Below, one piece after another: positions 1 through 36,090 of a DNA stretch of 64,000 nt. Source of the DNA: Gordonia amarae NBRC 15530 (GTDB lineage Bacteria > Actinomycetota > Actinomycetes > Mycobacteriales > Mycobacteriaceae). The notes under the pieces were generated by a model, which saw only the letters and a list, made by a program, of their open reading frames with translations, ran no database searches and was not told the DNA's origin. A program made the translations under genes and the position numbers. The stretch covers positions 1 to 64,000 of the forward strand of contig NZ_BAED01000019.1 in assembly GCF_000241345.1 (NCBI RefSeq). The letters are read 5' to 3'. Numbering within the stretch: position 1 is the first letter of the stretch; each line of letters starts with the position of its first letter.

Positions 1-2476
1 GGAGATCGTGTCGGAGAAGACCGGCTACCCCGCGGACATGCTGGGCCTGGACATGGAGATGGAGGCCGAACTCGGTATCGACTCCATCAAGCAGGTCGAG
101 ATCCTCTCGGCGCTGCAGGCCCAGTACCCCGGCGCCCCCGAGATCCCCGGCTCCGAGCTGGCATCCATGCGGACCCTGCAGGACGTGGTCAACTCCGTCG
201 CCGGCTTCACCGGTGCTGCCGCACCCACGGAAACCGCTGCCGCACCGGCAGCCACGCCCGAGCCCACACCCGCGGTAGGTCTGAGCTGCACCGAAGCTCG
301 TCTGCGCGTCGTTCCGCCTGCCGGGTTCGCGATGGGCGGCCTGCAGGACGGTGAGGTCGTGATCACCCGTGAGGACCCGGCGTTCGCCGACGCCCTCGAA
401 CAGGTCCTCGTCACCCGCGGCATCAAGGCGCGCGCCGTCGACGAGGTCCCCGAAGGTGCCGGTTCGGTGATCAGTCTGGCCGCGCTGGGTGCCGTCCGGA
501 CCCCCGAGGAATGCGTCGACATGCACGTGCGTGCCTTCCACGCCGCCCGCGCCGTCGCCCAGAGCAGCGCCGATACCCGAGTGTTCGTCACCATCCAGGC
601 CACCGGCGGCACCTTCACCGGCGGCGATGTCCCGACGGGCATCGCGAGCCTGGTCAAGACCGCCGGCTGGGAATGGCCCAACGCCTCGGTCCGCGCCATC
701 GACATCGAAACCCTCGACCCCGAGCGCATCGCGGCCGAACTGCTCGCCGGCGGCAGCGGCGTGGAGGTGGCCCTGCGTGCCGACGGCACTCGCCTCGTCG
801 CCGTCGAGGAGGTCGACGCCACCGAGGTCGGCGAGACCATTCCGGTCCCGGCCGAAGGTGTCGTCGTGGTCACCGGCGGAGCACGAGGTGTGACCGCACG
901 CTCGGCGCTCGCGCTGGCCAAGCAGCACGGGCTGCGCCTGGCACTGCTGGGCCGCACCGCGCTGCAGCCCGAATCGGCGGACGAACCCGCGGGCACCACC
1001 GCCACCGAGATCGCCACGGCACTGGCGTCGGCGGCCCGCGCCCGCGGTGAGTCGCTGAGCCTGCCGCAGGCCCGTGCCGCCGCCGAGAAACTGCTGGCCA
1101 CACGCGAGGTCCGCGAGACCCTCGCCACCGCCGCCCAGCAGGGGACCGTCGCGCAGTACTTCGCCGCCGACACCACCGACCGGGAGGCGCTGCATGCCTC
1201 GCTCGCCCAGGTCCGCCAGAGCCTGGGCCCGATCGTCGGCCTCGTCCACGGCGCCGGTGTCCTCGCCGACAAGCGTCTCGAAGATCTCGACGACGACGGT
1301 TTCCTGCGGGTGTTCTGCACCAAGCTGATCGGTGCCGAGAACCTGCTGGCCGCCACCGCGGGCGACGAATTGCGGTTCATCGCGCTGTTCTCGTCGATCG
1401 CCGCCCGGGCCGGCAACCCCGGCCAGGCCGCCTATGCCTCGGCCAACGCCGCGCTCGATTCGATCGCCGCCCGCGAAGCGCGCCGCCGCGGAGACAACTG
1501 TGTGGTCCGCGCGTTCGGCTGGGGACCGTGGGACGGTGGCATGGTCGACGCCACCCTCAAGAGCCGGTTCACCGAGGCAGGCGTGGGGGTGATCCCGATC
1601 GGTGAGGGCGCCGAGTTCTTCGCCCGCCACGCACTCGGCCGGGCACCGGCCACCGCCGTCGTCGTCGCCGCACCGGCGAAACCGCAGCTACGGTCCACCA
1701 CGCTGGCCTGGGATATCTCCGTGGAGAACCAGCCGGCCCTCGCCGACCACCAGGTGCGCGGCAATGTCGTGGTCCCTGTCGTGTTCGCCCTCGACGCCAT
1801 GCTGAACGCCGTCCGCGGACTGATCCCCGCCGACGCACCCGTGGTGCGTGACTTCCACGTGCTGTCGGGAGTCACCTTCCCGGCCGGGGAGCAGCACGCA
1901 CTGAGCATCGAACTCACCCCGGACGAGGCCACCTACGCGGTCGCCGTCCGCGACGCCGCCGGGCGCGCCCGCTACAGCGCGCGCATCGACTCGGGATCGG
2001 CCGCCGACCAGCCTGTGTCGGTCGCCGACGCCGGACATGGGGCGTGGCCGTTCGGGGTCGCCGAGGCGTACGCCGGACCGCTGTTCCACGGACCCGCGTT
2101 CCAGGTGATCGACGAGCTGACCACCTTCGGGCAGGCCGGAGGATCGGCCCTGCTCAAGGTGAAGGGCGAGGCCGGCTGGACCGGCGGCGAGTGGGCAACC
2201 GATCCCGCCGCCCTCGACGGTGCGCTGCAACTCGGCATCCTCTGGGCCTCCGCGCAGGGCATGCCGCTGGTGCTGCCGATCAGCATCGGGCGCGCGGTGT
2301 TCACCGCACCGTTCCCCGCCTCCGGCGACGTGCGGTGCCGCCTGGCGGCGTTCCCGCTCGGCGACAAGCGCGTCGACTACGACATCGTGTTCGAGACCAC
2401 CGACGGCGCACCGATCGCGGCGCTCGAAGGTGTCGAGTTCTATGTCGCCGGCAATGCCGACGGTGCCACCGCGTGA
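1..2476 (+). CDS. PUFA-synthase-like protein, C-terminal part (ACP-KR-DH), 5' truncated by window
   Basis: The reading frame is already open at base 2, so the N-terminal part (normally KS, malonyl-AT and more ACPs in PfaA/Pfa2 proteins) lies outside the window. Counting from the GTG at base 8, residues 1-66 are an acyl carrier protein with the phosphopantetheine serine in LGIDSIKQVEIL (Ser about 26). A ketoreductase follows at about 280-560, with the NADPH loop VVVVTGGARGV and the catalytic SS...Y segment (FSSIAARAGNPGQAAYASAN). The last 240 residues are a double-hotdog dehydratase with His in LADHQVRGN and Asp in DPAALDGALQL. This order matches the 3' half of PfaA-type polyunsaturated fatty acid synthases. 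The stop overlaps the GTG of the next gene by 4 bp (GTGA at 2473-2476), so the two are probably translationally coupled. The product made is not evident from sequence. Confidence 0.85.
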   Translation, partial: EIVSEKTGYPADMLGLDMEMEAELGIDSIKQVEILSALQAQYPGAPEIPGSELASMRTLQDVVNSVAGFTGAAAPTETAAAPAATPEPTPAVGLSCTEARLRVVPPAGFAMGGLQDGEVVITREDPAFADALEQVLVTRGIKARAVDEVPEGAGSVISLAALGAVRTPEECVDMHVRAFHAARAVAQSSADTRVFVTIQATGGTFTGGDVPTGIASLVKTAGWEWPNASVRAIDIETLDPERIAAELLAGGSGVEVALRADGTRLVAVEEVDATEVGETIPVPAEGVVVVTGGARGVTARSALALAKQHGLRLALLGRTALQPESADEPAGTTATEIATALASAARARGESLSLPQARAAAEKLLATREVRETLATAAQQGTVAQYFAADTTDREALHASLAQVRQSLGPIVGLVHGAGVLADKRLEDLDDDGFLRVFCTKLIGAENLLAATAGDELRFIALFSSIAARAGNPGQAAYASANAALDSIAAREARRRGDNCVVRAFGWGPWDGGMVDATLKSRFTEAGVGVIPIGEGAEFFARHALGRAPATAVVVAAPAKPQLRSTTLAWDISVENQPALADHQVRGNVVVPVVFALDAMLNAVRGLIPADAPVVRDFHVLSGVTFPAGEQHALSIELTPDEATYAVAVRDAAGRARYSARIDSGSAADQPVSVADAGHGAWPFGVAEAYAGPLFHGPAFQVIDELTTFGQAGGSALLKVKGEAGWTGGEWATDPAALDGALQLGILWASAQGMPLVLPISIGRAVFTAPFPASGDVRCRLAAFPLGDKRVDYDIVFETTDGAPIAALEGVEFYVAGNADGATA

Positions 2477-12122: not shown

Positions 12123-13142
12123 TCAGACGGTGGGGGCGGGCGGCATGGCGACGACCTGGCCCGAATAGCTCAGGCCCGCACCGTAACCGAGCAGCAGGGC
12201 GGTGTCTCCGGGCTTGGCGCGGCCCGATTTGAGCAGGTCGTACATCGCCAGCGGGATCGAGGCGGCGGCGGTGTTGCCGGTGTATTCGATGTTGTCGGCG
12301 ACGGGAACCCCGTCGCGCATCTTCAGGTTCTTCGCCAGGAGTTCGTTGATGCGGGCGTTGGCCTGGTGCGGCACGAACACGTCGAGGTCGTCGGCGGTGA
12401 TGCCGGTGAGTTCCAGGGTGCGCTTGGCTACTTTGCTCATCTCGAAAGCGGCCCAACGGAATACGGCGGTGCCGTTCATCCGCATGTAGGGGCGGTCGGT
12501 GTGGCTGGCGCCGAGCAGGTAGTCCTTCCAGTCCATCGACTGATGGATCAGTTCGCTCTGCGAGCCCTCGCTGCCCCACACCACCGGCCCGACCTGCCGG
12601 GTGGGGGTGGGGCCGACGACGACCGCGCCCGCGCCGTCGCCGAAGATGAAGCTCACCCCGGGGTCGGTCATATCCAGCGACATCGAGATCTCCTCGGCCC
12701 CGATCACCAGCACGCGGGTGGCGCTGCCGGAGCGGATCATGTCCTGCGCCAACGACATCGCGTAGCCGAACCCGGCACAGCCCACACTCACATCCATCGC
12801 GGGCACCCCGTTGGCACCGACCGCGGTGGCCACCGGCGGCGCGGCCGAGGGGATACAGCGTCCGTGGGTGCTGGTGGCCAGGAGCAGGGCGTCGATATCG
12901 GCGCCGGTCAGTCCCGAATTGGCGAGCGCGGCCCGGCCTGCCTCCACCGACATGGTGGTGATGCTCTCGTCGCGACCACAGAAGCGGCGGCTTTTGATGC
13001 CGGTGCGGGTGTAGATCCACTCGCTGTCCACGTCGAGGTTCGCGCAGATCTCGTCGTTGGCGACCAGTCGCTGGGGACGGTACGCACCGATTCCGAGGAT
13101 GCCGATGTTGTTCGTTCCGGTAGGAGTCGCGAACGTGACCAT
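12123..13142 (-). CDS. fabH: Beta-ketoacyl-ACP synthase III family protein (FabH-like)
   Basis: A 339-residue thiolase-fold condensing enzyme. It has the FabH catalytic triad: Cys in MDVSVGCAGFGYAMS, His in FVPHQANARINE and Asn in EYTGNTAAASIPLA. The start of the family pattern (GILGIGAYRPQRLVANDEIC, DSEWIYTRTGIKSRRF) is intact. FabH condenses acyl-CoA with malonyl-ACP to start or extend fatty acid chains; in mycobacteria it links FAS-I products to FAS-II. It is monocistronic and lies 3 kb from the PUFA-like synthase, but nothing shows that the two work together. The ATG at 13142 fits family length, with AGGA 12 nt upstream. An ATG at 13184 would add 14 residues (MTPLHVDSKGQPTS) and cannot be excluded. 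Confidence 0.85.
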   Translation of the reverse strand: MVTFATPTGTNNIGILGIGAYRPQRLVANDEICANLDVDSEWIYTRTGIKSRRFCGRDESITTMSVEAGRAALANSGLTGADIDALLLATSTHGRCIPSAAPPVATAVGANGVPAMDVSVGCAGFGYAMSLAQDMIRSGSATRVLVIGAEEISMSLDMTDPGVSFIFGDGAGAVVVGPTPTRQVGPVVWGSEGSQSELIHQSMDWKDYLLGASHTDRPYMRMNGTAVFRWAAFEMSKVAKRTLELTGITADDLDVFVPHQANARINELLAKNLKMRDGVPVADNIEYTGNTAAASIPLAMYDLLKSGRAKPGDTALLLGYGAGLSYSGQVVAMPPAPTV

Positions 13143-13306
13143 GGAGGTGGGTTGTCCTTTGCTGTCGACGTGGAGCGGCGTCATATGAGAGCTATGCCCT
13201 GCTGCTGAACCTAGTAGATGGCGGTCACACAGTCGCAGGCAGGTTGTCCGCGGGCCGAACGTGCTTCGGGTGTCGCCCACAGTTGCCCTCGGTGGGTCAC
13301 ACTTGG

Positions 13307-28646: not shown

Positions 28647-29687
28647 GTGGACTTGATCATTCGCGATGACTCTCGATGCGGAACCGACACCGTCGGTCCG
28701 CTCACGCTGAGCTGGGCGGCCAACAGCGACGTCGGCCGGGTCCGGGAGTCCAATGAGGACGCCGCCTCGGTCCGGCCCGGCAAGTACTTCGTCGCAGACG
28801 GCATGGGCGGTCACGAGAGTGGCGAGGTCGCGAGCGAGACCGCTCTGCGGGCGTTCGACGGGGTGGTCTGCGGTGGTGACCGTACCGAAACCCAGACCTC
28901 GCTGATCGACCTGCTCACCACCGCACAGCAGCAGATCGACGAGATCGACCCGGGCGCGCACCGGCGGGCGGGGACCACCGCCACCGGTGTCGTCCTGGTC
29001 ACCCACGACGACCGCCCGCACTGGCTGGTGCTCAACATCGGCGACTCGCGCACCTACCGGTACGCGCAGGGTGTGCTGGAGCAGGTCACCGTCGACCATT
29101 CGCAGGTCCAGGAGTTCATCGACGCCGGATTCATCACGGCCGAGCAGGCCCGTACCGATCCCCGGCGCAATGTGATCACCCGGGCTCTCGGCGCCGGAAT
29201 GATCGCACCGGAGGCCGACTTCTACTCGTTCCCCGCGGTCGCCGGCGACGTGCTGCTGATGTGCACCGACGGCCTGACCGGGGAACTGCCCGACGGCGAG
29301 ATCGAGGAGATTCTCGCCGAGATGCAGAGTCCCAAGGACGCGGTCGCGGCGCTGGTCGCCGGCGCCCATGCGCTCGGCGCCCACGACAACGTCACCGTCG
29401 TCATGGTGGCGGTCTCCGACGCGGTGGCCGAGGACGCCGACGGTGATGCCACCGTGCCGGCGGAGTCGGACGGTACCGGTCCGGCCGAGTCTGCCGCGGA
29501 CACGACGGATCCCGCAGCTCCTGACACCGCAGCTCCCGATACCGCAGAACCCGTTGCCGCAGCTCCCGATGCCGCGGTTCCCGATGCCGCGGTTCCCGAT
29601 ACCGCGGTTCCCACTACCGGGGATCCCGCTGACGCGGCTCCCGAGACGGCCGCCCCCGACGCCGCAGCCGAGGATGCCTCGGTGTGA
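28647..29687 (+). CDS. PP2C-family serine/threonine phosphatase with repetitive Pro/Ala tail
   Basis: A metal-dependent PPM/PP2C phosphatase of 346 residues. Metal-binding motifs are present in order: SNEDAASV, VADGMGGHESGE, LNIGDSRTYRY, LMCTDGLTG and AHDNVTVVMV. The catalytic domain covers residues 1-265, and the remaining 80 are a low-complexity tail built on P-D-T/A-A repeats. There is no membrane helix. GAGGGAGA 5 nt before the GTG at 28647 favours that start over the ATG at 28623. It follows pdxS by 41 bp and overlaps the FHA-like gene by 4 bp (GTGA, 29684-29687). It presumably dephosphorylates proteins modified by Ser/Thr kinases, but no kinase gene is present in the window. Confidence 0.85.
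   Translation: MDLIIRDDSRCGTDTVGPLTLSWAANSDVGRVRESNEDAASVRPGKYFVADGMGGHESGEVASETALRAFDGVVCGGDRTETQTSLIDLLTTAQQQIDEIDPGAHRRAGTTATGVVLVTHDDRPHWLVLNIGDSRTYRYAQGVLEQVTVDHSQVQEFIDAGFITAEQARTDPRRNVITRALGAGMIAPEADFYSFPAVAGDVLLMCTDGLTGELPDGEIEEILAEMQSPKDAVAALVAGAHALGAHDNVTVVMVAVSDAVAEDADGDATVPAESDGTGPAESAADTTDPAAPDTAAPDTAEPVAAAPDAAVPDAAVPDTAVPTTGDPADAAPETAAPDAAAEDASV
29510..29665 (+). repeat. Degenerate 15-bp tandem repeats coding the PP2C tail
   Basis: Units close to CCCGATGCCGCGGTT repeat in frame and encode PDAAV/PDTAA pentapeptides. Two adjacent copies around 29567-29600 are nearly identical, so copy number may vary between strains. Confidence 0.65.
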
Positions 29688-33619: not shown

Positions 33620-33722
33620 TCTTGGTTCCCGGGCCGGCCACCGGAGTGTGTTGGTGTGCCGGGTTGTCTCGCCGACCCGCTACGATGTCGAACAGTTGTT
33701 CTCAAAGCCGGGAGGTGCGCGG

Positions 33723-34289
33723 GTGCGGGTGATGGGTGTGGACCCGGGATTGACCAGGTGCGGTATCGCGCTGGTCGAGTCCGGCAAGGGACGCTCGGTC
33801 ACCGCTCTTGACGTGGACGTGGTGCGCACACCCACCGACATGGAGCTGTCGCAGCGGCTGCTCGCCGTGTACACGGCGGCCTGCCACTGGCTCGACGTCC
33901 ATCAGCCCGACGTCGTCGCCATCGAGCGCGTCTTCGCCCAGAACCAGGTGTCGACGGCGATGGGTACCGCGCAGGCCGGGGGAGTGATCGCCCTGGCGGC
34001 CGGTCAGCGTGACGTTCCGGTCCGATTCCACACCCCGTCGGAGGTGAAGGCCGCGGTCACCGGCAGCGGCCGGGCCGACAAGGCACAGGTCACCGCTATG
34101 GTCACCCGGATCCTGGGCATGCAGACCAAACCGAAACCCGCCGACGCCGCCGACGCGCTCGCGCTGGCGATCTGTCACTGCTGGCGCGGCCCGATGGCCG
34201 AGCGGATGGAGGAGGCCAAACGTAAGGCCGACACCCTTGCCGCCCGGCACCGCGCCCGCGTCGCCCAGGCCGCGGGAGGTGGTCGATGA
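33723..34289 (+). CDS. ruvC: Holliday junction endodeoxyribonuclease RuvC
   Basis: A 188-residue nuclease that cuts Holliday junctions. The RNase H-like core begins [17 protein letters not shown] (first catalytic Asp) and includes [23 protein letters not shown] (Glu) and [15 protein letters not shown] (late Asp). The GTG at 33723 has GGGAGG upstream and gives the family start. Promoter candidate TACGAT lies about 40 nt before it. The stop overlaps an ATG by 4 bp (34286-34289), but that ATG opens an 18-codon mini-ORF, not ruvA itself. Confidence 0.95.
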
Positions 34290-34342
34290 TTGCGTCGGCC
34301 TCCGAACTCCACGCGCGGCACCCGAAAGGAGGTGCTCGATGA
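34286..34342 (+). CDS. 18-codon mini-ORF 1 between ruvC and ruvA
   Basis: ATG at 34286 overlaps the ruvC stop (ATGA) and opens [18 protein letters not shown], ending at TGA 34340-34342. It has GGGAGG upstream and its stop overlaps the next ATG. It may be only a coupling device for reaching ruvA. Confidence 0.45.
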
Positions 34343-34391
34343 TTGCGTCGGCCTCCGAACTCCACGCGCGGCACCCGAAAGGAGGTGCTCG
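34286..34391 (+). repeat. Two tandem 53-bp copies of the ruvA translation-start region
   Basis: The sequence from ATG 34286 to 34338 is repeated exactly at 34339-34391. Each unit ends with AAAGGAGGTGCTCG directly before the next ATG. The first 12 bases of ruvA (from 34392) still resemble the start of the unit (ATGATCGCGTCG vs ATGATTGCGTCG). The period of 53 is not a multiple of three. Confidence 0.9.
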
Positions 34392-34395
34392 ATGA
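34339..34395 (+). CDS. 18-codon mini-ORF 2 between ruvC and ruvA
   Basis: This is an identical peptide, [18 protein letters not shown], starting at ATG 34339 after GGAGG and ending at TGA 34393-34395, which overlaps the ruvA ATG (ATGA, 34392-34395). Confidence 0.45.
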
Positions 34396-34988
34396 TCGCG
34401 TCGGTCCGCGGCCCGGTGATCGACATCGCCCTTGACCATGTGGTCATCGACTGTGGGGGTGTCGGCTATCGGGTGCTGGTCACCCCGCCCACGGTCGCCA
34501 CGGTGCGGCGCGGTACCGAGGCCACGCTGCTCACCACGATGATCGTGCGTGAGGACTCGATGACCCTCTACGGCTTCATCGACCCGGATGCCCGCGCGCT
34601 GTTCGGGCTGTTGCAGACGGTCACCGGGGTAGGGCCGCGACTGGCGATGGCCACCCTCGCCGTTCTCGAGCCCGACGCCCTGCGGCGGGCCCTGGCCGAG
34701 TCGGACACCAAGGCGCTCACATCGGTGCCGGGTATCGGTAAGCGGGTCGCCGAACGGCTCGTCGTCGAGTTGCGCGACAAGGTCGACCTCCCGGTCGGCC
34801 CGGGTGGGCCGGGCGCGGGCGTTTCCGTGGGTTCGGTGCGCGGGCAGGTCAGCGAGGCGCTCGTGGGTCTGGGCTTCACCGCCGCGGCGGCCGAGAAGGC
34901 CGTGCAGGCGGTGCTCGCCGACAATCCCGCCGCCGATGCGTCCACGGCATTGCGTACCGCACTGGGCGCACTCGGCAAGACGTCATGA
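34392..34988 (+). CDS. ruvA: Holliday junction branch migration protein RuvA
   Basis: A 198-residue protein. RuvA tetramers clamp Holliday junctions and load RuvB. It starts [28 protein letters not shown] (OB fold), continues [10 protein letters not shown], two helix-hairpin-helix motifs ([19 protein letters not shown] and [22 protein letters not shown]), and ends with the RuvB-binding helical domain ([21 protein letters not shown]). The ATG at 34392 has a strong GGAGG 6 nt upstream, duplicated from the repeats. The frame is open further upstream through the repeats, but that extension is not like RuvA. Confidence 0.95.
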
Positions 34989-35007: not shown

Positions 35008-36090
35008 ATGAGCGAAGATCCCGGGCAGTATTCGGAGGTCAGTGCCGCGCCGATGCCCGGCGACGGCGACTTCGACGCCGGGTTGAGGCCCCGGTCGCTG
35101 GCCGACTTCATCGGCCAGCCCAAGGTGTGCGAACAACTCGAACTGGTGCTGCAGGGTGCCAAGGGCCGTGGCAGTACCCCCGACCATATCCTCCTGTCGG
35201 GGCCGCCCGGCCTCGGTAAGACGTCGCTGGCGATGATCATCGCCTCGGAGATGGGTTCGGCCATCCGCGTCACCTCCGGACCGGCCCTCGAACGCGCCGG
35301 TGATCTCGCGGCAATGCTGTCCAACCTCGTCGAGGGCGACGTGCTGTTCATCGACGAGATCCACCGCATCGCCCGGCCCGCCGAGGAGATGCTGTACCTG
35401 GCGATGGAGGACTTCCGGGTCGACGTGGTGGTCGGCAAGGGGCCCGGTGCCACCTCCATCCCGCTCGATGTCGCGCCGTTCACACTGGTCGGCGCCACCA
35501 CCCGGTCAGGTTCACTGACCGGCCCGCTGCGGGACCGGTTCGGGTTCACCGCGCACATGGAGTTCTACGAGACAGATGAGTTGGTCCGGGTGCTGCGCCG
35601 GTCGGCGGGCATCCTCGGGATCGCGATGCGACCTGACGCGGCCACCGAGATCGCCCGCCGCTCACGCGGCACCCCCCGGATCGCGAACCGGCTGCTGCGC
35701 CGGGTGCGTGACTACGCCGAGGTCCGTGGCGACGGCAAGGTGACTGTCGCGGTGGCCCGCGCGGCGCTGGCCGTCTATGACGTCGACGACCTCGGTTTCG
35801 ACAGGCTCGACCGGGCCGTCCTGGGCGCCCTGATCCGCGGGTTCGGCGGGGGACCTGTCGGGGTGTCGACACTCGCGGTGGCGGTGGGCGAGGAGCCCGC
35901 CACCGTGGAGGAGGTGTGTGAGCCGTTCCTGGTGCGGGCGGGCATGATCGCGCGCACCCCGCGCGGCCGGTTGGCCACCGCCGCGGCCTGGCACCACCTG
36001 GGTCTGACCCCGCCCGCGGGTGCGATGAACGCGACGTTCGCCGTCCGCGCCCGGGACGGCGGCACCGGCACTCTGTTCGACGATCTCTAG
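35008..36090 (+). CDS. ruvB: Holliday junction branch migration helicase RuvB
   Basis: A 360-residue AAA+ motor that drives branch migration with RuvA. It starts with [29 protein letters not shown], then has Walker [14 protein letters not shown], Walker [10 protein letters not shown], sensor 1 VGATTRSG, arginine finger GPLRDRFGF and a winged-helix C-terminus ([17 protein letters not shown]...PRGRLAT). It starts 19 bp after ruvA with GGGAGG upstream. Complete ruvCAB operon. Confidence 0.97.

Follow-up and report, generated by a model that had tools for sequence, protein, structure and literature searches.

Short open reading frames (ORFs) coupled to a gene through a stop-start overlap are known from engineered and natural settings. 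Bicistronic design, used in synthetic biology, places in front of the gene a short leader ORF that contains the second Shine-Dalgarno (SD) sequence and has its stop overlapping the gene's start, and MIRUs (mycobacterial interspersed repetitive units) commonly have a unit length of 53 bp. MIRUs are described as tandem repeats of 46-101 bp at 41 loci of the M. tuberculosis chromosome (PMC3914561), whose insertion at a start codon brings along an ORF with -4 coupling to the gene (PMC12548453). In mycobacteria, RTGA-coupled small ORFs end in an RTGA tetramer on the start of the next gene, a linkage that outlasts changes in the peptide (Shell et al. 2015, PMC4633059). The small ORFs described in the latter report are the first ORFs of leaderless transcripts.

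In this work, we analyzed the ruvC-ruvA junction of the Gordonia genome here called G000, which lies within a window of 64,000 nucleotides (the whole stretch of DNA under analysis) and holds two identical 53-bp units, each with such an ORF. As in the RTGA-coupled small ORFs, the TGA of both units overlaps the next RTG; unlike them, the units have a gene on either side, are coupled at both ends, stand in tandem and possess a head copied from the next gene. With MIRUs they share a small ORF coupled at its start/stop overlap with -4 spacing, the tandem arrangement and the 53-bp length, but MIRUs are scattered, whereas this unit occurs at a single locus and its head copies a local gene. The unit thus works like MIRUs and RTGA-coupled ORFs but is not a MIRU, since it is not dispersed, a distinction drawn from the number of loci. 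Bicistronic design differs in being engineered, single and placed at the 5' end. Every overlap at this junction is a -4 NTGA overlap, as in the termination-reinitiation coupling described in PMC12548453, although three of them form a chain here instead of one. In searches of open-access papers, we came across no account of bridging ORFs arising by duplication of a junction.

Anatomy and origin of the ruvC-ruvA insert

The junction and its surroundings comprise the following features.

33688..33703, plus strand: LexA/SOS-box-like site TCGAACAGTTGTTCTC, 5' of ruvC (sequence)
33723..34289, plus strand: ruvC, with the GTG start chosen here and its stop TGA at 34287-34289 (Pfam RuvC, 8e-56)
34275..34279, plus strand: Shine-Dalgarno GGAGG of mini-ORF 1, within the end of ruvC (sequence; duplex energy -11.6 kcal/mol)
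34286..34338, plus strand: 53-bp unit 1, bearing mini-ORF 1 (34286-34342) (sequence, TRF)
34328..34332, plus strand: Shine-Dalgarno GGAGG of mini-ORF 2, within unit 1 (sequence; -13.2 kcal/mol)
34339..34391, plus strand: 53-bp unit 2, same as unit 1, bearing mini-ORF 2 (34339-34395) (sequence, TRF)
34381..34385, plus strand: Shine-Dalgarno GGAGG of ruvA, within unit 2 (sequence; -13.2 kcal/mol)
34392..34988, plus strand: ruvA, with the likely template for the heads of the units in its first 13 bp (12/13 identical) (Pfam RuvA_N)
35008..36090, plus strand: ruvB-like ORF completing ruvCAB (ORF list)

Direct reading of the sequence places ATG start codons at 34286, 34339 and 34392, and a GGAGG (at 34275, 34328 and 34381) precedes each of them with 6 nt in between. 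Both mini-ORFs encode the same 18-codon peptide followed by TGA. The first ATG overlaps the TGA of ruvC, the TGA of mini-ORF 1 overlaps the ATG of mini-ORF 2 (ATGA), and the TGA of mini-ORF 2 overlaps the ATG of ruvA in the same way (ATGA), so that the end of ruvC and the start of ruvA are now 102 nt apart. This architecture of three ATGs 53 bp apart, identical mini-ORFs, ATGA overlaps and GGAGG sequences had been reported in the preliminary description and was confirmed by the sequence and by TRF, whose row for the array (34275-34404, period 53, 2.5 copies, 97% match, score 246) scores highest of the eight in the window. A separate tandem array at 29512-29668 has a period of 15/30 bp, with about 10 copies of the 15-bp unit.

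The ruvA start at 34392 is backed by the relatives, which begin with MIAS, and by Pfam RuvA_N, which covers residues 1-61; an N-terminally extended RuvA is ruled out on the same grounds. As a warning for annotation, the ruvA frame is open upstream as far as a TTG at 34290 in the ORF list, and gene callers may extend RuvA accordingly. The site 5' of ruvC was named for its likeness to the SOS-box consensus, and a degenerate SOS-box pattern matched 5' of ruvC in 59/59 Gordonia loci; the ORF at 35008..36090 is presumably ruvB, a name given from its position. The SD of ruvA in G000 is the strongest among the 59 Gordonia genomes (that of G045 has -5.0 kcal/mol). RNA structure was dropped as a mechanism, because five folds gave ordinary z values against shuffles (-0.16 to -1.56) and SD accessibility in G000 lay inside the range of the 59 Gordonia loci.

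The insert had been presented as a duplication of the ruvA start region, which holds for one end of the unit. Its first 13 bp do copy the ruvA start (12/13), but its last 11 bp match the end of ruvC at 10/11 positions, i.e. around the Shine-Dalgarno sequence only, and the resemblance of its middle to the ruvC tail is no greater than that of shuffles (P 0.17 in G000 and 0.61 in G032, the second genome with a unit). The unit seems to arise by local duplication, but a local origin of the whole of it is not proven, since its middle is unmatched to the ruvC tail. The G032 unit is identical to that of G000 at 28/53 positions in an ungapped comparison, and the two middles are alike only when +1 and -1 indels are granted (P 0.017), after which the length returns to 53. 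It keeps the 53 bp, the 18 codons and both overlaps, with a weaker first SD (-7.1); in this one species pair, the linkage is kept and the peptide changed.

Distribution in Gordonia and search for further copies

We read the junction in all 59 Gordonia genomes, every one of which matched ruvC-ruvA. The plain NTGA overlap (-4) with zero units was present in 55 of them, 54 by script plus G056 (printed as -5, where the alignment began at residue 82 and the sequence reads ATGA); the remaining spacings were +2 in G051, -1 in G037, +49 in G032 and +102 in G000. The number of units, whose comparison across sister species had been proposed beforehand, does differ: none in 57/59 Gordonia genomes, one diverged 53-bp unit in G032 and two in G000. 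Among 80 named loci from Gordonia and related genera, a set that overlaps the 59 genomes, the spacing was -4 in 74, 0 in two and +2 in one, while two lacked a match to ruvC and the script paired one wrongly. The conserved -4 overlap that NTGA translational coupling requires is thus found at ruvC-ruvA in the relatives and, since most Gordonia genomes and named loci have it, this overlap is most likely the ancestral state.

Within the 59 Gordonia genomes and 80 named loci, the insert is known from G000 and G032 alone. G045, which is about as close to G000 as G032 is, has no unit, and the trees disagree: the concatenate pairs G000 with G045, and the ruvA tree pairs G000 with G032 at 0.75. Recombination, or loss of the unit in G045, is possible. 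The ruvC tail of G045 (L007) carries an 18-bp in-frame tandem duplication of its own; the end of ruvC has therefore been duplicated more than once in the clade.

When the G000 genome was searched with a 66-bp unit, only the two ruv places matched (next best E 0.047 over 20 bp), which makes a chance likeness untenable, and no copy was found elsewhere in G032 (next best E 0.084); the single locus in each genome differs from the dispersal of MIRUs over many loci. No full-length unit was found outside G000 in 401 family genomes, with two candidates scored per genome, 30 other genomes giving short partial matches only (the best of 30 bp at 9e-5), and a plasmid collection gave no match. A dispersed element suggested by G015 was rejected, as its seven repeated matches are one repeated sequence with a similar SD, presumably the start of an IS110-type transposase. 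A pattern search of the 401 family genomes, a set that G032 is outside of, matched four genomes, of which G000 is real. The L165 match, once read, resembles a cytochrome P450 gene, and L166 shows the same matched letters; L164-L166 had no ruvC or ruvA match.

Junction duplications elsewhere and their phase

A duplication of an NTGA overlap would spare both genes whatever its length, and only a length of 2 mod 3 would pass a ribosome from overlap to overlap (phase 2, the relay phase). As 53 is 2 mod 3, an ORF that starts at one ATGA is closed by the following one. The preliminary description had credited a period that is not a multiple of three with avoiding gene fusion; the genes do stay intact, but they would with any period, and what 2 mod 3 brings is that the inserted ORF ends on the next start.

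We ran a junction detector on 1.264 Mb of G000 (60 stretches plus the window), a non-random sample of about a quarter of the genome, and obtained 16 rows. Three loci were judged to be real stop-start junction duplications in relay phase, all with a step of exactly 53 bp: ruvC-ruvA, and L241 and L242, which both belong to one gene cluster on contig C58 (DUF4132, AAA_5 and DUF5682/VWA_CoxE by Pfam; no match in PADLOC). L241 has five ATGA/GTGA starts from 12926 to 13138, separated by four steps of exactly 53 bp, and its first four ORFs are of 18 codons each, with tails resembling the KEDGE of the upstream gene; its last step, to the GTG at 13190, is 52 and not 53, so that the fifth ORF (21 codons) enters the next gene and the hand-over is not a -4 overlap. 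At L242 (2550-2603), one 53-bp step gives MIVRLAEWVAETITGPRS followed by a stop, copying the upstream C-terminus RLAEWVAETITGPRS and its stop. DNA searches with the L241 and L242 stretches returned short partial matches only in the other 58 Gordonia genomes. The same cluster also contains a 1608-aa gene whose C-terminal end carries a 30-bp tandem repeat in frame (L241:17905-18004). L218 (18 bp, phase 0) is a possible junction, and visual inspection classed the remaining rows as intergenic arrays.

These counts are lower bounds, as the detector missed the diverged ruv unit of G032 although that locus (L167) was in its input, and a stricter version missed L241. On 0.417 Mb of G032 it gave eight rows, of which three were inspected: L287 (17 bp, VSPNGL plus stop), whose upstream ORF is weakly coding, is junction-like and in relay phase; L273 and L279 were unconvincing. 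The stricter version found none in 0.28 Mb of G055. In G047, a 23-bp unit occurs twice between two genes (L359) and gives the 8-codon mini-ORFs MTRTGGLR and MTRTGGAR, each ended by a stop, independently of ruvC-ruvA.

Two patterns, GGAGG-N6-RTGA or GGAGG-N7-RTGA occurring twice with starts 32-62 or 33-63 apart, were then searched in 394 genomes of the class. Scan 1 gave 58 matches versus 17 for its reversed-pattern control, and scan 2, which was run after the bias had appeared among followed-up scan-1 loci, gave 69 versus 5. The phase was taken from the pair distance in scan 1, whereas in scan 2 the smallest unit served for this. With no gene filter, the 49 distinct matches of scan 1 fell into phases 2/0/1 as 20/18/11 (p 0.25; 21/18/10 by smallest unit, p 0.14), and the 61 of scan 2 as 36/20/5 (p 7e-6; 32/19/5 with orthologues collapsed, p 6e-5; 34/20/7 by pair distance, p 1.3e-4).

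Flanks were read for all scan-1 matches and, in scan 2, for 30 tool-given loci plus the 13 remaining spacer-identical ones of any phase, with 8 of the 61 distinct matches (4 in phase 2, 4 in phase 0) outside this reading. The gene-flank filter (at least 120 open codons upstream, at least 100 downstream and a coding-like base pattern) replaced, after the data had been seen, a stricter one that passed just 3 of 50 chains, codon periodicity being weak in gene tails. Excluding ruvC-ruvA (L358) and seven hand-picked phase-2 loci (L450-L456), 23 loci from both scans were gene-flanked, with phases 2/0/1 of 18/3/2 (binomial p 1.3e-5 against 1/3). Phase 0 only adds a second in-frame start to the downstream gene, and the telling contrast is therefore the one between the non-fusing phases, 18 in phase 2 versus 2 in phase 1 (p 4e-4). 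The tool-given loci alone have 9/11 in phase 2 (p 0.0014), and setting aside L426, one of the 18, whose first bridging ORF is interrupted by a stop, leaves 17/22 (p 3e-5). Within scan 2, the difference between gene-flanked and non-flanked matches was weak (Fisher p 0.12).

Identity to the neighbouring genes reached 9/13 at the head and 13/24 at the tail in 7 of the 18 phase-2 loci and 16/24 or better at the tail in 6 more, counts to be read with the prior selection of 13 scan-2 loci for identical spacers. At L429, the upstream gene ends in QGEAGR, the bridging ORF is MTLRNPPAGEAGR and the downstream gene begins MTLLDS; at L437, an end in RQEDGP is followed by VKKEDGP and VKKEDGS, each with its stop, and by a gene beginning VKKVAL. 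A universal 53-bp step was rejected: 53 is among the gene-bridging first steps of the class scans, and first steps of 20, 23, 37, 38, 40, 41, 44, 47, 56, 59 and 62 occur as well. In the hand-picked groups of related loci, the frame was kept but the peptide was not, with steps of 53/53/53 at L450-L452, 44/44 at L455/L456 and 50 versus 56 at L453/L454; the RTGA-coupled small ORFs of mycobacteria show the same pattern (PMC4633059).

Several further loci were noted. L378 (G749) has two 26-bp units (MRPPSGARS and MRPPSGGRP, each with a stop) before a gene that is presumably ruvX/yqgF, and its upstream ORF has just 34 codons. An 11-codon ORF, VTRISSCGGRS with its stop, is conserved at L367, L369, L371 and L399 and ends on the downstream start; at L366, VTRISCESHGGQS and its stop likewise end on the downstream gene start, and the downstream gene at L366, L367, L369, L371 and L399 reads MTSVLVCDDSPLARE. 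L418 (about 1320-1600, minus strand) and L357 (about 1430-1590), from two species of one other genus of the same order, have tandem units of about 59 and 62 bp with RTGA-to-RTGA ORFs and a common core, and their flanks of about 1.5 kb are unmatched apart from the repeat. These two arrays may represent a dispersed MIRU-like relay element.

A probable ribosome relay and alternative explanations

We consider it probable that the mini-cistrons stem from a junction duplication and are kept since ribosomes can be relayed through them, the peptide itself being without function. The ATGA overlap of ruvC and ruvA would have been duplicated in tandem with a 53-bp step in a lineage common to G000 and G032 (or, alternatively, recombination would have carried it from one to the other) and the unit duplicated once more, recently, in G000. 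Each copy would constitute a mini-cistron, with a head from the ruvA start and a tail whose Shine-Dalgarno sequence is like that of the ruvC end. A ribosome ending ruvC would reinitiate twice, each time translating 18 codons, before starting ruvA, and this relay would keep ruvA coupled despite the end of ruvC lying 102 nt upstream; with such strong SDs, fresh initiation may also contribute. Duplications in other phases would uncouple the second gene and be lost more often. The relay is, on indirect evidence, the best-supported reading: the anatomy, the species distribution, the single locus and the phase bias were observed, and we infer from them translation, reinitiation and the irrelevance of the peptide. 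A termination-reinitiation relay tuning RuvA output had been suggested previously; its relay part is consistent with the -4 overlap in 55/59 Gordonia genomes and the 18/23 phase bias, but the tuning is unsupported, folds and SD accessibility being ordinary. With its own very strong SD, ruvA might need no relay, and the 18-codon ORF of G032 could be open by chance.

These last points lead to a neutral duplication, possible though rather unlikely, in which ruvA would use its own strong SD and the mini-ORFs would be drifting by-products, to be lost in time. It agrees with the different peptides of G000 and G032, the strong ruvA SD (-13.2), the ease with which an 18-codon ORF would stay open in GC-rich DNA, the unremarkable RNA folding, the 57/59 Gordonia genomes without the unit and the lack of phase bias in the unfiltered scan 1, but not with the 18/23 gene-flanked pairs in relay phase, as against 2 in the other non-fusing phase, nor with the constant frame within three sets of related loci, picked by hand, whose sequence changed. 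The unit numbers of 0, 1 and 2 among species, the identical G000 copies, by which the last change looks recent, and the conserved SOS-box-like site preceding ruvC would also suit a regulatory or phase-variable rheostat in which a slippage-altered unit number sets RuvA synthesis. We regard this as very unlikely, because folds and SD accessibility are ordinary and, judging by the sequence alone, 0, 1 or 2 units leave the ruvC and ruvA frames and genes intact, so that copy number makes no on/off switch as it does at contingency loci. The slippage-prone phase variation put forward in the preliminary description is unsupported: 57/59 Gordonia genomes are without a unit, and the comparison covered one genome per species.

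Extremely unlikely, in our view, is the insertion of a mobile repeat of the MIRU type into the ATGA site. According to the cited reports, such a repeat would have the same architecture of a -4-coupled small ORF inserted at a start codon (PMC12548453) and a tandem unit of 46-101 bp (PMC3914561); however, the unit stands at a single locus in G000 and in G032, outside G000, scoring two candidates per genome across 401 family genomes turned up no full-length match (at best 30 bp, 9e-5) and the unit head copies the local ruvA start. It is hardly credible either that the draft assembly, in 83 contigs, produced the second copy as an artefact: the 53-bp identity is exact, as an artefact would give, but the array (130 bp) should fall below common short-read length, and G032, a single contig, has its own diverged unit.

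Beyond the relay at ruvC-ruvA, one could imagine that Actinobacteria keep making bridging ORFs by junction duplication, with 2 mod 3 selected and the process favouring a 53-bp step, and that MIRUs are junction duplications that later became mobile. We hold this decidedly unlikely; the idea of such a MIRU origin arises because three G000 junctions share exactly 53 bp, a length typical of MIRUs.

Altogether, our verdict is that the G000 feature is real, ordinary in chemistry and unusual in origin. Mini-cistrons made from the ends of two neighbours would offer a visible route for the birth of short ORFs inside operons, and the phase bias would amount to a natural experiment on the in vivo use of termination-reinitiation by bacteria. 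Junction duplications may also explain some of the unannotated, non-conserved small ORFs in actinobacterial operons.
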